This document shows, piece after piece, positions 1,064 through 7,205 of a stretch of 14,262 nucleotides of DNA. How positions within the stretch are numbered: the first letter of the stretch is position 1; each line of letters starts with the position of its first letter. The position numbers were made by a program, and so were the translations under genes. A model generated the notes under the pieces. That model had not been told where the DNA came from. It saw nothing but the letters and a program-made list of their open reading frames with translations, and searched no databases. This stretch comes from an uncultured Bacilli bacterium (GTDB lineage Bacteria; Bacillota_I; Bacilli_A; RF39; UBA660), in contig CANTWQ010000099.1 of assembly GCA_947853365.1 (NCBI GenBank), positions 1-14,262 on the forward strand. The letters run 5' to 3'.

Positions 1064-1087
1064 AAATTATTTCCCGGGAAATAATTT
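1064..1087. promoter_or_regulatory. 24-bp perfect palindrome containing a Noc-binding sequence (NBS)
   Basis: Bases 1064-1087 are a perfect inverted repeat with no spacer, centred between 1075 and 1076. Its core at 1069-1082 reads ATTTCCCGGGAAAT, identical to the 14-bp consensus bound by Noc in Bacillus subtilis (established literature). A Noc-family gene lies 2.7 kb downstream. The repeat sits 2-6 nt upstream of the candidate -35 of mnmG. It could also fold in RNA as a CCGG-loop hairpin followed by an interrupted T-rich tract (1089-1100) and act as a weak mnmE terminator; both roles are possible. Confidence 0.8.
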
Positions 1088-1145: not shown

Positions 1146-3020
1146 ATGAATTATGACATTATTGTTGTCGGTGGAGGACACGCTGGATGTGAAGCTTGTT
1201 TAGCATCTGCCCGCCTTCATCATAAGACATTACTTATTACAGGAAATAAAAATAATATAGCAGATATGCCATGTAATCCTTCTATCGGTGGGCCTGCCAA
1301 AGGGATTATTGTACGAGAAATTGATGCCCTTGGGGGTGAGATGGCTAATAATATTGATCATAGCTCACTACAGATGAAAATGTTAAATACGAAAAAGGGA
1401 CCAGCAGTTAGAGCATTAAGAGCCCAGGGGGATAAGATTACCTATCCAGAGCAAATGATAAATACTTTAGAAACCACACCTAATTTAACTATTTTAGAAG
1501 CCATGGTTGAAGATTTAATCGTCGAGAACAATACTGTACAAGGAGTTATTTTAGAAGACGGTACAAAAATTGTCAGTAAAATTGTAATTTTAACAACTGG
1601 TACATATTTAAAGGGAACAGTCTTAGTCGGATCGATGAAAACTCCATCTGGTCCTCACGGCGAAAAACCATCCAAGCATCTTAGTGATACCCTAAGAAAA
1701 TTAGGATTTACGATTCAACGGCTTAAAACAGGAACTCCACCACGGATTCAAAAGGATAGTATTGATTTTTCAAAAACCGAAATTGAACCAGGAGATGAAA
1801 AAGCATACGCTTTTTCTTTTGATCATGCCCCTCTTTACCAACCGAAAGATCAACTCCCATGTTACCTCACCTATACTACTGCCCAAACGCATCAAATCAT
1901 TCATGAGCATTTAACCGAATCTAGTATGTATGGTGGTTATGTCGAAGGCGTAGGTCCGCGCTATTGTCCATCCATCGAAGATAAAGTGGTTCGTTTTCAA
2001 GATAAAGAACGTCATCAATTATTTCTAGAGCCAGAAAGTAAATACTATGATGATATCTACTTACAAGGCTTTTCTACGAGTATGCCTCATGAAATTCAAG
2101 AACAAATGGTAAAAAGTATTCCTGGCTTAGAGCATGCGATTATTAAAAAATATGCTTATGCGATTGAATATGATGCAATTGATCCGACGCAACTAAAACA
2201 ATCACTAGAAACAAAGCTTATTGAGAATCTTTTTACTGCTGGTCAAATTAATGGTACTAGTGGATATGAAGAAGCCGCTGGACAAGGATTGATTGCAGGC
2301 ATCAATGCTTCCTTAAAATTGAATCATAAGCCACCCCTTATTTTAAAGAGAAATGAAGCATATATTGGTGTTTTGATTGATGATCTTGTCACCAAAGGAA
2401 CCAAAGAACCCTATCGTATGTTAACTTCTCGTGCGGAATATCGTTTGCTTCTTCGTCATGACAATGCAGATCTTCGCCTTCGAAAATATGGATATGAAAT
2501 TGGACTGATATCGAAAGAAAAATATGAACGATTAAAAAAGAAAGAAGCCCAAATTGAAGATTTAATATCTTTATTAAAAAGTCATAAAATTACCCCAAAG
2601 CAAGAAGTAAATGCCTATTTGGAAGCCAATGGATCTACGCCTCTATATGACGGAATTACATTGTATCAATTATTAAAAAGACCAGAAATTACCATGACTG
2701 AGATTGCTCATTTTATTTCTTTAGATTCTTATGAAAAAGAAGTGTTAGAACAAGTAGAAATTATGGATCGATACGAAGGCTATATCAAAAAGGCAAATCA
2801 AGAAGCCGAAAAGATGCTTTCTATGGAAAGTATTATCATTCCCCAAGAATTTGACTATCAACTGGTACACAATTTAGCAACGGAAGCTCGTCAAAAGTTA
2901 GAAGCGATACGTCCTACTTCGTTAGGGCAAGCGTCTCGTATTAGTGGAGTAAATCCAGCGGATATTGCAATATTGAGTGTAATGTTAAAAAAGCAAGAAC
3001 AAAGGAAGATCAATGTATGA
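1146..3020 (+). CDS. mnmG: MnmG (GidA), FAD-dependent tRNA wobble-uridine modification enzyme
   Basis: MnmG is the FAD and NADH-dependent partner of MnmE in forming (c)mnm5U34 in tRNA. The 624-residue length is usual for the family. The N terminus carries the Rossmann FAD-binding motif GGGHAG (9-14). The conserved CNPSIGG loop has Cys43, the second conserved Cys is at 274 in GPRYCPSIEDK, and the FAD-contacting GQINGTSGYEEAAGQG segment is at 366-381. The C-terminal helical region that contacts MnmE and tRNA is present. The start ATG 1146 has a good ribosome binding site 6 nt upstream. The stop TGA overlaps the rsmG start (ATGA), which suggests translational coupling. Nothing in the protein looks atypical. 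Confidence 0.98.
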   Translation: MNYDIIVVGGGHAGCEACLASARLHHKTLLITGNKNNIADMPCNPSIGGPAKGIIVREIDALGGEMANNIDHSSLQMKMLNTKKGPAVRALRAQGDKITYPEQMINTLETTPNLTILEAMVEDLIVENNTVQGVILEDGTKIVSKIVILTTGTYLKGTVLVGSMKTPSGPHGEKPSKHLSDTLRKLGFTIQRLKTGTPPRIQKDSIDFSKTEIEPGDEKAYAFSFDHAPLYQPKDQLPCYLTYTTAQTHQIIHEHLTESSMYGGYVEGVGPRYCPSIEDKVVRFQDKERHQLFLEPESKYYDDIYLQGFSTSMPHEIQEQMVKSIPGLEHAIIKKYAYAIEYDAIDPTQLKQSLETKLIENLFTAGQINGTSGYEEAAGQGLIAGINASLKLNHKPPLILKRNEAYIGVLIDDLVTKGTKEPYRMLTSRAEYRLLLRHDNADLRLRKYGYEIGLISKEKYERLKKKEAQIEDLISLLKSHKITPKQEVNAYLEANGSTPLYDGITLYQLLKRPEITMTEIAHFISLDSYEKEVLEQVEIMDRYEGYIKKANQEAEKMLSMESIIIPQEFDYQLVHNLATEARQKLEAIRPTSLGQASRISGVNPADIAILSVMLKKQEQRKINV

Positions 3021-3721
3021 CTGAAGAAGAATTTTATGAATATCTCAAAAAAGAAAATATCATATTAAATGACAAACAAAAACAACAGTTAGATACCTTT
3101 TATCATTTACTTCTCGCGTGGAATGAAAAAATGAATTTGACTAGAATTACCGAAAAAAAAGAAGTTTATCTCAAACATTTTTATGATAGTCTTACCCTAC
3201 ATAATGCCTATGACTTAACCCAACCCATTCATCTATGTGATGTTGGAACCGGCGCTGGATTTCCTGGCATTGTTTTAAAAATTGTTTTTCCCAACTTAAA
3301 AGTAACTTTGATTGACTCCCTTCAAAAACGAACCAATTATTTAAAAGATGTGATTGCTAGATTAGGATTAACCAATATTACCGTTATTCATAGTCGCGGT
3401 GAAGATTATGCCAAAAAAAATCGTGAAATTTTCGATGTTGTTACAGCTCGTGCTGTTACAAATTTAAATGCACTATTAGAAATATGTGCTCCTATGACGA
3501 AAGTAAATGGATATATCATACCAATGAAAGCAAACGTCGAAGAAGAATTAAAATCTGCCAAGAAGGCATTTTCTCTTTTACACTTAACTCTAGTGAATAA
3601 AATTTGTTTTTTACTTCCTATAGAAAATAGCACACGAACCCTTTTAGTCATTCAAAAAAATCAAAAAACAGATTTTAAATATCCACGTCACGCAAATGAA
3701 ATCAAAAAATATCCATTGTAA
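3017..3721 (+). CDS. rsmG: RsmG (GidB), 16S rRNA m7G527 methyltransferase
   Basis: RsmG methylates N7 of G527 (E. coli numbering) in 16S rRNA using SAM; loss gives low-level streptomycin resistance in other bacteria. The 234 residues include the KHFYDSL motif (53-59), the SAM-binding loop DVGTGAGFPG (75-84), the LIDSLQKR segment (98-105) and ARAV (144-147). The family C terminus in Bacillota usually reads like YPRKPGTPxKxPL; here it is YPRHANEIKKYPL (222-234), so the Gly/Pro-rich part has drifted. The ATG lies inside the mnmG stop (4-nt overlap), with an SD-like AAAGGAAGA at 3001-3009. It belongs to the mnmG transcript. Confidence 0.97.
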   Translation: MTEEEFYEYLKKENIILNDKQKQQLDTFYHLLLAWNEKMNLTRITEKKEVYLKHFYDSLTLHNAYDLTQPIHLCDVGTGAGFPGIVLKIVFPNLKVTLIDSLQKRTNYLKDVIARLGLTNITVIHSRGEDYAKKNREIFDVVTARAVTNLNALLEICAPMTKVNGYIIPMKANVEEELKSAKKAFSLLHLTLVNKICFLLPIENSTRTLLVIQKNQKTDFKYPRHANEIKKYPL

Positions 3722-3788: not shown

Positions 3789-5258
3789 ATGAATATGGAA
3801 AGAGAAATCGTAGATTTATATGTAGATGATATCATACCAAATCGCTTTCAGCCACGTGAAATTTTTGAAGATAAAGCATTACGAGAATTATCTGCATCCA
3901 TTAAAGAACACGGCGTGATTCAACCAATCATTGTTCGTAAAATTGGTGATAAATATGAAATCATTGCCGGAGAACGTCGATATAAAGCGTCTGTTATGGC
4001 TGGACTTACGAAAATTCCAGCAATTATTAGAAATTTAGATGATAAAGAAAGTTCAAAAGTTGCCCTCCTTGAAAATTTGCAAAGAAGAGACTTAACACCG
4101 ATTGAGGAAGCGCGCACTTATCAAAAAATATTAGATCTAGATTCGATGACCCAAGAAGAATTAGGACGCACTATGGGCAAAAGCCAAGCCGCAATTGCCA
4201 ATAAACTACGCTTGCTATCCCTTGCGGATGAAGTACAAGAAGCGTTATTGAATGATAAAATTTCAGAACGTCATGCGCGTAGTTTATTAAATATTAAAGA
4301 TAAAGAAAAACAAGTAGAAATGTTAAAGAAAGTGATTGCAAATCGTATGACAGTTCGAGAATTAGATGCTGAAATTAAAAAAATGAATCAAGAATCAGAA
4401 AGCAAGGTAGAAAATAGTACCGTTTCTAGTCCTGAAAAAGCCGGACAAGCAAATACAACCATTACTACACCATCTGAAAATCAGGCAACCCCGACGTTGG
4501 AAGATCCGTTTATTCCACATCCTAAAGTATATAATCCATCGGCCAATGCCGTCGATATCAAAGCATCGTCTAATATCGATTTAGATGAATTGAAATCAAA
4601 AACGACAGACATCATTGGTCCAGAAAAAGAATCTCCTGATTTTGATAAATTATTACAAGTTCCTAAAAAAGAAGAGGAAGAAGATCCTGCCTGGAAACAG
4701 AATTTTAAATTTGTCCCTAATTTTGACGAAGAACCTGAAAAAACAACGACTCCAGAAAAGAATGAAAGGACAATTCCAACCTTTGATTATATTTCTTTAT
4801 CGCCAGATCAAACTTCGTCATCCAATGTATCATCGGCACCAGCCGAAACTGAAAAATTAGAGTCAATTTCTTCACTACCGACATCCGTGGAAACGACCAC
4901 TTCTGAAAATACACTTGATCATCTAACGATGGAGCCAAGTTACCAAGAAGTAAAAACTCCAACAGCCCCTACTCCAATTGAAATTCCAGATGAAATTGAA
5001 ATGTTAGATGATACACCAAAGAAACAAAGTTATCAACCATTTACCAATACCGAGTCATTACTTAATGAATTTCGCAATAAAAATGGTATCGAACATCCAA
5101 CTGCACCAAAAGAAGAAAGTCAACCTGCAACTTTAAAATTGGCAATCAACGATGTTCGAGATCTCATCAATCGTTTAGAAGCTGGAGGTTTAAAAATCGA
5201 TTTGGATGAGATGGATTTACCAAATTCATATCAAATTACAATAAAAATAGATAAATAA
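3789..5258 (+). CDS. noc: Noc, ParB-family nucleoid occlusion protein with long disordered insert
   Basis: Noc is a ParB-like CTPase that binds NBS sites and keeps the division septum off the nucleoid in Bacilli. Residues 8-115 form the ParB N-terminal CTP-binding domain with GERRYKAS (61-68) and ENLQRRDL (95-102); the helix-turn-helix domain spans about 118-200. Aligned to published ParB/Noc specificity positions 173/179/184/201, this protein has Q133, K139, S144 and R161, three of four Noc-type. Residues 447-489 (LAINDVRDLINRL... YQITIKI) resemble the Noc C-terminal dimerisation domain. Between lies about 245 residues of acidic S/T/P/E-rich low-complexity sequence, making it 489 residues against about 280 for B. 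subtilis Noc. The basic, aromatic amphipathic N-terminal extension of B. subtilis Noc is absent: the ParB core starts about 8 residues in. The start 3789 has GAGGGG 6 nt upstream. Confidence 0.88.
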   Translation: MNMEREIVDLYVDDIIPNRFQPREIFEDKALRELSASIKEHGVIQPIIVRKIGDKYEIIAGERRYKASVMAGLTKIPAIIRNLDDKESSKVALLENLQRRDLTPIEEARTYQKILDLDSMTQEELGRTMGKSQAAIANKLRLLSLADEVQEALLNDKISERHARSLLNIKDKEKQVEMLKKVIANRMTVRELDAEIKKMNQESESKVENSTVSSPEKAGQANTTITTPSENQATPTLEDPFIPHPKVYNPSANAVDIKASSNIDLDELKSKTTDIIGPEKESPDFDKLLQVPKKEEEEDPAWKQNFKFVPNFDEEPEKTTTPEKNERTIPTFDYISLSPDQTSSSNVSSAPAETEKLESISSLPTSVETTTSENTLDHLTMEPSYQEVKTPTAPTPIEIPDEIEMLDDTPKKQSYQPFTNTESLLNEFRNKNGIEHPTAPKEESQPATLKLAINDVRDLINRLEAGGLKIDLDEMDLPNSYQITIKIDK

Positions 5259-5519: not shown

Positions 5520-5545
5520 GAATATGAAAAGAAAAGGTGATTTTG

Positions 5546-6334
5546 ATGGGAAAGATAATTTCATTAGTGAATCAAAAAGGTGGCGTAGGAAAGACAACAA
5601 CAAGTATCAATCTTTCTGCATCCCTTGCATTATTAGGAAAAAAAGTTTTATTACTAGATTTAGATCCCCAAGGAAATGCAACAACTGGTGTAGGTATGAA
5701 TAAAGGGGATATTGAAAAAAGTATCTATGATGTCATTACGGGAAAATGTACAGTTCAAGAAGCAATCCATAAAACAAAATATAGAAATTTGTATTTGTTA
5801 CCAGCAACGATCAACTTGGCGGGAGTCGATATCGAATTGATTGAAAAAAGTCAATCGGAACCAGGCTTTGCTAAAGGAGTTCAGTTAAAACAAGCATTGG
5901 AGCCAATTAAAGATGATTTTAATTATATTATCATCGATTGTCCTCCATCTCTTGGCTTATTGACTACCAATGCCCTAACGGCATCGAACTCTGTGATTAT
6001 TCCAGTACAATGTGAATTCTTTGCGCTAGAAGGAATCACACAATTATTAAATACAATTATGTTAGCACAAAAAAACTTGAATCCGACGTTAAATATTGAA
6101 GGAGTATTATTAACGATGTTGGATTCTAGAACTAATTTAGGATTAGAAGTCGTTGAAGAGATTAGACGTTACTTTAAAGAACGTGTCTACAATACGATTA
6201 TTCCAAGATTGATTCGTTTGACAGAAGCCCCATCTCATGGGAAACCAATACTGGCGTATGATCCGAAAAGTCGTGGATCAGAAGCTTACTTAAATTTAGC
6301 AAAGGAAGTGATCGAGCGAAATGGAAACGTCTAA
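5546..6334 (+). CDS. soj: Soj (ParA), chromosome-partitioning ATPase
   Basis: Soj is a deviant-Walker ParA ATPase that dimerises with ATP, binds DNA non-specifically and works with Spo0J in origin segregation and control of DnaA. The 262 residues show KGGVGKTT (11-18, deviant Walker A with the signature first Lys), DLDPQGN (38-44, A' motif) and IIIDCPPSLG (128-137, Walker B). The frame can be opened earlier at GTG 5537, but that codon lies inside the ribosome binding site AAAGGTGA; ATG 5546 is correctly spaced and gives the usual MGKIISLVNQKGG start. The 3' end overlaps spo0J by 14 nt, which suggests coupled translation of the pair. Confidence 0.97.
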   Translation: MGKIISLVNQKGGVGKTTTSINLSASLALLGKKVLLLDLDPQGNATTGVGMNKGDIEKSIYDVITGKCTVQEAIHKTKYRNLYLLPATINLAGVDIELIEKSQSEPGFAKGVQLKQALEPIKDDFNYIIIDCPPSLGLLTTNALTASNSVIIPVQCEFFALEGITQLLNTIMLAQKNLNPTLNIEGVLLTMLDSRTNLGLEVVEEIRRYFKERVYNTIIPRLIRLTEAPSHGKPILAYDPKSRGSEAYLNLAKEVIERNGNV

Positions 6335-7205
6335 GAGAAGAGCCTTAGGAAGAGGATTAGAAGAACTATTTAACAATGAACCAATCGATTATCAAGGGAT
6401 GGAAGAAAAAATCATCGAAACAACCCCAAAAGATAATATTGTTGAAATCCCTTTAAAAGATTTACGAAGCAATCCTTATCAACCACGAAAACATTTTGAT
6501 CAAGATGCTTTAGAAGAATTGGCAAAATCGATTAAAGAACACGGGGTATTTCAACCAATCATTGTAAAAAAAAGCATCAAAGGATATGATATCATTGCTG
6601 GAGAGCGGCGTGCCAAAGCATCAGAACTAGCAGGAAAAACAACAGTTCCCGCCATTGTGCGTGACTTTACAGATGACGAAATGATGGAAATTGCGCTCCT
6701 AGAAAATTTACAGAGAGAAGATTTGAATGCCATCGAAGAAGCGACAGCTTATAAAAAATTAGTAGAAGCTCTTCACCTTACCCAAGAAGAATTAGCCGAT
6801 CGTCTTGGCAAAAGTCGTAGTTATGTCACAAATATGTTGGGATTATTGTCATTACCAGAAATGGTAAAAACAATGATCGTCAATGGCGATATTTCTATGA
6901 GCCATGCCCGGGTATTAAGTAAAATAGCAGATTCCGAAAAAGTATTGATGCTTGCAAATCGTATTTTAAACGAAAATCTCAGTGTCAGACAAATAGAACA
7001 ATTAGCGAGCGCCTCTGATGTAGTCAAAAAAAATCAAGTGACAAGACATACTTCTTCTCGTTCCAATGAATATCATTATATTGAAGAAGTTTTAAGAGAT
7101 AAATTAGATACCAAGGTAAAAATCAAAAATAAAAAAATTGAAATTAGTTTTACCAATACCAATGATCTTAACCGGATTTTAGAAATTTTAGAAATAGAAA
7201 GTTAA
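6321..7205 (+). CDS. spo0J: Spo0J (ParB), parS-binding CTPase of the partition system
   Basis: ParB loads at parS, slides as a CTP clamp, recruits SMC and stimulates Soj. The 294 residues contain the N-terminal basic RRALGRGLEELF segment (6-17), which in the family activates ParA ATPase, then the CTP-binding domain with GERRAKAS (94-101) and ENLQRED (128-134), then the helix-turn-helix (about 153-178) with KSRSYVTN, and a C-terminal dimerisation domain (about 245-294). The residue matching ParB position 173 is Arg (R166), the ParB type, in contrast with the Gln of the neighbouring Noc paralogue. The start ATG 6321 lies inside soj, with an SD-like AAGGAAGTG upstream. No full parS sequence is visible in the gene or elsewhere in the window, unlike in B. 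subtilis where one lies within spo0J. Confidence 0.96.
   Translation: METSKRRALGRGLEELFNNEPIDYQGMEEKIIETTPKDNIVEIPLKDLRSNPYQPRKHFDQDALEELAKSIKEHGVFQPIIVKKSIKGYDIIAGERRAKASELAGKTTVPAIVRDFTDDEMMEIALLENLQREDLNAIEEATAYKKLVEALHLTQEELADRLGKSRSYVTNMLGLLSLPEMVKTMIVNGDISMSHARVLSKIADSEKVLMLANRILNENLSVRQIEQLASASDVVKKNQVTRHTSSRSNEYHYIEEVLRDKLDTKVKIKNKKIEISFTNTNDLNRILEILEIES

Follow-up and report, generated by a model that had tools for sequence, protein, structure and literature searches.

A predicted Noc-binding site upstream of mnmG and an origin-proximal set of such sites in a family of uncultured Bacilli

The mnmE-mnmG gap and its palindrome

We analysed a stretch of 14,262 nucleotides (the window), which is contig C99 of a draft assembly of 893,991 bp in 133 contigs that is 73.8% complete. 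Six genes follow one another on the forward strand: mnmE (1-1059, 5'-truncated at the window edge; TIGR00450), mnmG (1146-3020; TIGR00136), a gene at 3017-3721 taken from the ORF list, which from its place in the gene order we take to be rsmG-like, noc (3789-5258), parA/soj (5546-6334; ParA/MinD-type families, with the name soj based on its position before parB) and parB/spo0J (6321-7205; family and Pfam matches and the tree described below). For parA the ATG at 5546 was taken as the start, while the ORF list starts at the GTG at 5537.

Between mnmE and mnmG, a perfect palindrome of 24 bp without strand, AAATTATTTCCCGGGAAATAATTT, occupies 1064-1087 and ends there, the next outward pair (A1063/C1088) being mismatched. 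It encloses at 1069-1082 the 14-bp core ATTTCCCGGGAAAT, also without strand, which we take to be identical to the B. subtilis consensus for the Noc-binding site (NBS). The palindrome and the exact 14-mer, on which the original prediction was built, were both confirmed by direct reading. With three mismatches allowed the window count is 1 against 1.19 in shuffled sequences, so that only the exact 14-mer match is informative. The assembly holds three exact copies (on C7, C59 and C99; none for the reversed-pattern control) and one copy with one mismatch, and up to two mismatches give 9 copies against 3 for the reversed pattern; further copies of the kind expected of a genuine NBS thus exist in the genome. 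The exact palindromic core, its recurrence above control in a Noc-encoding genome and the NBS-reading residues of the encoded Noc (see below) agree with the view first put forward for this site, and we predict with high confidence that the palindrome is a Noc-binding site.

The five further symmetric pairs on either side of the core had been thought to point to a second use as a terminator hairpin for mnmE. The extra symmetry is real and family-wide: at 69 intergenic family sites (C/T and A/G allowed at the centre; sites of related genomes are non-independent) left-right symmetry is 0.99, 0.64, 0.59, 0.64 and 0.71 at positions +1 to +5 and 0.28-0.38 from +6 outward, against a background, taken from intergenic DNA only, of 0.31-0.33, and 29 within-ORF sites give 0.90 at +1 and 0.52-0.69 at +2 to +5. 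Going by these flanks the extended NBS of the family is 24 bp, and the size thus reflects this form of the site and not a terminator hairpin. That the palindrome terminates mnmE is very improbable: the mnmE stop codon does precede it, a T-rich stretch follows in the window, and in one relative (L128) the corresponding stretch has a better fold than its shuffled versions (z = -3.25), but the scan called no terminator, the RNA folds of the window and of two other relatives gave z = -1.0, -0.73 and -0.27, the T tract is missing in three genomes that keep the site (G001, G003 and G016), and symmetric flanks are also present within ORFs. The GC-rich hairpin and T run of an intrinsic terminator were not found at the palindrome.

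A possible weak mnmG promoter was picked out by eye on the forward strand at 1089-1116, with TTGTTC at 1089-1094 and, after a 16-nt spacer, TATAAT at 1111-1116; this pair was not among the hits of the promoter scan. The NBS core ends 6 nt before this possible -35 by eye; the -35 named in the original prediction is weak. Conservation upstream of mnmG was checked as well: the palindromic core is kept there in all five genomes of the window's genus, and across the family an NBS precedes mnmG in 8 of the 26 genomes with that gap available, a share that may be high since part of the regions had been selected for containing an NBS. The distance from the core to the mnmG start is 63 nt in the window and 64 nt in G046 (counted from the near end of the core to the printed start and good within a dozen nt), in which an AT-rich TATATA was seen by eye in the spacer, and 24-32 nt in the other six genomes, where it is too short for a promoter. 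Since six of the seven other genomes leave only these 24-32 nt, the link between an mnmG promoter and the NBS looks private to the window genome, and the overlap thus appears to be either coincidental in this genome or recently gained. Regulation of mnmG-rsmG transcription by Noc from 1064-1087, the special role suggested for the site, is hence improbable; the closeness to the possible -35 and the presence of the site throughout the genus would fit such a role, but the spacers of the six relatives would not, nor would its absence before mnmG in 18 of the 26 genomes, and NBSs of the family occur in several gaps and within genes. Several positions are interchangeable for the NBS, the one upstream of mnmG among them, and an effect on mnmG would therefore be incidental.

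Distribution of NBSs around dnaA and together with parS

Exact NBSs were found in 52 of 58 family genomes and in 3 of 39 other class members. A second sample (genomes at least 95% complete plus the window's own genome) gave 32 of 38 family genomes against 8 of 207 others, and a phylum sample, which comprised the same class only and so had the many-NBS control (Bacillaceae) outside it, gave 16 of 19 against 11 of 374; the site numbers for B. subtilis and S. aureus used below come from papers. In 51 family genomes (a count that leaves out G035, whose four sites agree) there are 130 exact sites, of which 86, from 39 of these genomes, are on dnaA contigs; all 86 lie within 28 kb of the dnaA start, 83 of them within 20 kb. 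Some dnaA contigs are short, which limits the distance, and at least 14 site-bearing ones are longer than 60 kb, up to 297 kb. Five assemblies of about 10 contigs or fewer (G017, G034, G040, G042 and G052) have one exact site each, 8.9-15.9 kb from dnaA.

The remaining 44 exact sites map near dnaA by gene order in 43 cases: for 41, orthologues of the neighbouring genes lie near dnaA in at least two family genomes, the site on G003:C50 was placed by gene order in mainly one genus-mate, and the window copy was placed near the origin through its own mnmE-mnmG genes. The sole exception, G019:C1:104579, had no origin placement by gene order. Relative to dnaA the sites extend from roughly -26 kb to +28 kb, a span of about 54 kb where most genomes measure 0.8-1.7 Mb, and a distribution across the greater part of the chromosome that spares the terminus was not seen in the family. 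From these positions we conclude that the NBS set is very probably confined to the origin in the window's family. This changes the original view of a site that marks the nucleoid: the sites keep to the origin region and do not extend over the nucleoid as a whole (86 of 86 and 43 of 44 sites), and the membrane anchor that the marking model relies on is missing from this Noc (see below). Searching open-licence papers, as far as their accessible text goes, returned nothing on origin-confined NBSs or on NBS-parS arrays.

A one-mismatch search in 12 family genomes (six without an exact site and six others) gave 13 additional sites and none for the control; 12 of these are no more than about 10.1 kb away from dnaA, the thirteenth (G037) is on an unplaced contig, and three genomes gave none. 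Twelve of the 13 are ATTTCCTGGGAAAT or its complement ATTTCCCAGGAAAT, a commonest variant that breaks the central symmetry and is the sole form in G012 and G049. G022, G032 and G038 have no site at up to one mismatch despite a Noc-type hit, and one relative locus (L039) has no exact NBS within the 10.7 kb examined. In the window's own genome the one-mismatch copy, on C116, was considered as a member of the origin set and rejected; it is probably due to chance, since a long ORF encloses it and none of the C116 ORFs matched the origin-region loci.

Some family sites are arranged in other ways. In G026 (L154, 18141-19103) at least 13 tandem NBSs (12 exact and one central variant) follow gyrA with a period of about 79-80 bp; this array runs towards the contig end, and more copies are present on two small contigs (L219 and L220). 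In several family genomes an NBS recurs within the same ORF, which is rsmI-like by eye and located about 15.6 kb from dnaA (NBS at L203 5416, L207 5406, L210 663, L212 4985 and L214 4997), and other NBSs lie inside ORFs at the dnaX position, at about +10.5 kb.

The other two exact copies of the window's own genome, C7:4515 and C59:6945, adjoin perfect parS sites, 16-mers of which there are four (C7:4542, C7:4783, C59:6772 and C59:6915). Contig C7 carries gyrB-gyrA and then ends in NBS/parS sites; C59 carries NBS/parS sites, followed by a deaminase gene, presumably tadA, and then dnaX. Judged by gene order, both contigs seemingly break within a single cluster of NBS and parS between gyrA and tadA, like that of the intact gap of G018 (PPNPNPNPNPNNPNPN). 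As in a ParABS centromere, four perfect parS sites are thus placed near the origin by gene order, and ParA- and ParB-type genes are present in the window.

Across the family, the pattern parS-N0-30-NBS is found in 41 of 386 genomes (control 0). In regions selected for the presence of NBS, dnaA or noc, a parS is found within 60 bp of 18 of the 77 intergenic NBSs, compared with a mean of 7.3 and a maximum of 15 in 1000 trials with random intergenic positions; a fixed phasing or closeness of the two within gaps that hold both was not significant (18 of 32, p = 0.068). The two motifs are mixed mainly in the gyrA-tadA gap; where it was available in full (23 genomes), NBS or parS is present in 20, and a manual count gave 14 with NBS, 16 with parS and 10 with both. 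Part of the G017 gap shows parS alternating with a variant NBS at a period of 62 bp. Such mixing in many arrays might suggest that the site is a divergent parS bound by ParB and not by Noc, as might G015 (69% complete) and G029 (91%), which have exact NBSs but only a ParB-like hit. We consider this most unlikely, for the perfect parS 16-mers are present separately, as in the window's own genome with its four, two or more Noc/ParB-type hits were obtained in 56 of 58 family genomes, and it is Noc that carries the NBS-reading residues.

The Noc protein of the window and its family

The gene at 3789-5258 encodes a Noc-family protein of 489 aa, as had been predicted. Pfam identifies ParB_N and HTH_ParB and names no domain in the C-terminal part, and the curated NCBIfam family TIGR04285 matches with 300.6 bits, below its cut-off of 315. 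In a tree of 37 proteins, computed without the Noc of f8 and G080, the Noc/ParB split is found at 100/100 with the window protein on the Noc branch, and the family Noc are grouped at 97/89. Q133, K139 and R161 are invariant in the 16 aligned Noc and by alignment match Q158, K164 and R186, the residues described as setting NBS specificity (PMC7383237). The equivalent of lysine 169 is not kept (S in the window Noc), and the G050 Noc has T at the position of lysine 164; Q158 and R186 together with a lysine at 164 or 169, the combination expected of a Noc, have their equivalents in the window Noc.

The alignment with the 7nfu and 7ol9 chains (the solved chain of 7ng0 is shorter) starts at their residue 26 or 27, which faces residue 5 or 4 of the window Noc, and so the latter is without about 21-23 N-terminal residues. 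No clear N-terminal extension was seen in the 30 family Noc closest to the window (that of G007 is ambiguous, with in-frame starts upstream), and four further ones (G034, G036, G042 and G047) agree. The predicted structure of the window Noc (mean pLDDT 63.5, from an alignment of 16) has no helix of at least four residues before residue 28; by alignment and model, the N-terminal amphipathic helix of a membrane-tethering Noc is absent. The model is folded at about 8-208 and 449-487, with pLDDT <50 over 211-263, 272-282 and 290-444, so that a disordered linker of about 240 residues is predicted at about 209-448. The C-terminal part is conserved among the Noc and by eye resembles that of class-mates. 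The window Noc is also without the LGRGLEELF N-terminus that its ParB carries; an N-terminus of this type is the ParA-facing end in Spo0J.

A proposed role for the family Noc at the origin

Given the absence of both a membrane helix and an LGRGLEELF-type N-terminus, we favour a role at the origin over nucleoid tethering, and propose that Noc in the window's family is probably a membrane-free origin clamp beside ParB. The palindrome would be one NBS of an origin-restricted set, at which Noc would nucleate, close with CTP into a clamp and slide over the origin domain beside ParB, with the long disordered linker recruiting or spacing its partners. It would serve to organise the origin domain and/or to control the initiation of replication rather than to tether the whole nucleoid to the membrane, and a membrane link may still be made through a partner or the linker.

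The family Noc has in common with B. subtilis Noc a ParB-type clamp with the Q/K/R reading residues and what we take to be the same 14-bp core, but has few, origin-confined sites, no helix and the linker of about 240 residues. B. subtilis Noc is described as having an amphipathic helix at its N-terminus and about 70 sites, which are distributed around most of the chromosome (PMC4331003), and without the helix it is reported to be impaired in occlusion (PMC8429893, PMC4331003). Chromosomal ParABS likewise has origin-near clusters of sites, and the family NBSs often share a gap with parS; both systems have a protein of the sliding-clamp family; site and protein are different, and the LGRGLEELF N-terminus is with the family ParB and not with its Noc. 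In S. aureus the NBS core consensus is described as identical to that of B. subtilis (PMC5540599), and a link to the origin is plausible for both the S. aureus and the family Noc.

The S. aureus comparison raises the possibility that Noc mainly limits replication initiation, through a complex over the oriC region and a putative contact with DnaA. Nearly all family sites surround dnaA, with one 0.3 kb upstream of it in G027 and in G048, and S. aureus Noc is described as restraining initiation and giving small ChIP peaks around dnaA (PMC5540599). However, many family sites are 9-16 kb from dnaA, several of them mixed with parS, and the 41 ChIP loci given for S. aureus, all but one within 700 kb on either side of the origin, cover a far wider region than the roughly 28 kb from dnaA within which the family sites lie (PMC5540599). 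By analogy such a mechanism is possible, if unlikely, as the main function.

Ordinary nucleoid occlusion with few sites, in which FtsZ is blocked over the origin through a putative membrane or divisome partner, is in our judgement rather unlikely. The noc gene does adjoin parA-parB in the window, the S. aureus work argues that partners matter (PMC5540599), and a spatial division cue may be needed, because MinD was unmatched at E 1e-30 in all 56 genomes searched (35 of the family and 21 others of the class; controls including B. subtilis were positive). Against this stand the absence of the N-terminal helix in 30 family Noc, a loss that impairs the B. subtilis protein, and a span of sites of only about 54 kb. 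In the literature, Spo0J and Noc are also described as acting together on Z rings (PMC6852036). "Nucleoid occlusion" is for the family Noc a name by descent.

Returning to the membrane-free clamp, we tentatively suggest that the family Noc may have become, or stayed, a second centromere-binding clamp, with NBS and parS forming a composite origin centromere for two CTP clamps. It is conceivable, and we offer it with the same reserve, that the ParB clamp would there be linked to ParA and the Noc clamp free of ParA and membrane, both organising or licensing the origin. If true, the family would have a Noc that does not serve nucleoid occlusion, and this state could reflect an intermediate step in the divergence of noc from parB. 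Noc is familiar as a membrane-tethering factor whose sites number in the dozens and lie scattered; in a family with small genomes, the same DNA code is origin-confined and mixed with parS and the protein has no membrane helix, which amounts to a natural deletion that parts the clamp from membrane occlusion. This makes it possible to test the function of Noc without the membrane, whether initiation control or origin organisation was the older role, and the sharing of one centromere region between duplicate ParB-type clamps.

Class-mates outside the family served as a control. The Noc of G062 (f6) and those of G067 and G078 (f11) have an N-terminal extension with hydrophobic residues near the start, judged amphipathic by eye only, and these genomes have scattered one-mismatch sites and no exact site: 8 over 3.0 Mb in G078, 5 over 2.4 Mb in G067 and 3 on three contigs in G062, one of the latter 4.6 kb from dnaA. 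G436, of the same family as G078, has 19 one-mismatch sites on 18 contigs. The extension is missing in f13 and short in f8 and f17. The link between a missing helix and confined sites is imperfect, because G080 (f13), whose Noc is without the extension, has six near-sites scattered over 2.5 Mb. G089 has one one-mismatch site (control 1), and G064 no NBS at up to one mismatch though a Noc-type protein is present, whose binding site may be of another sequence. In G084 (f17) there are five one-mismatch sites, all between 13 kb upstream and 26 kb downstream of dnaA. The 681-aa Noc-type frame of this genome (L174) has a short hydrophobic start, MALFNRKDKEE, and its C-terminus ends in GFWNLFK, so that a membrane motif may possibly lie at the opposite terminus.
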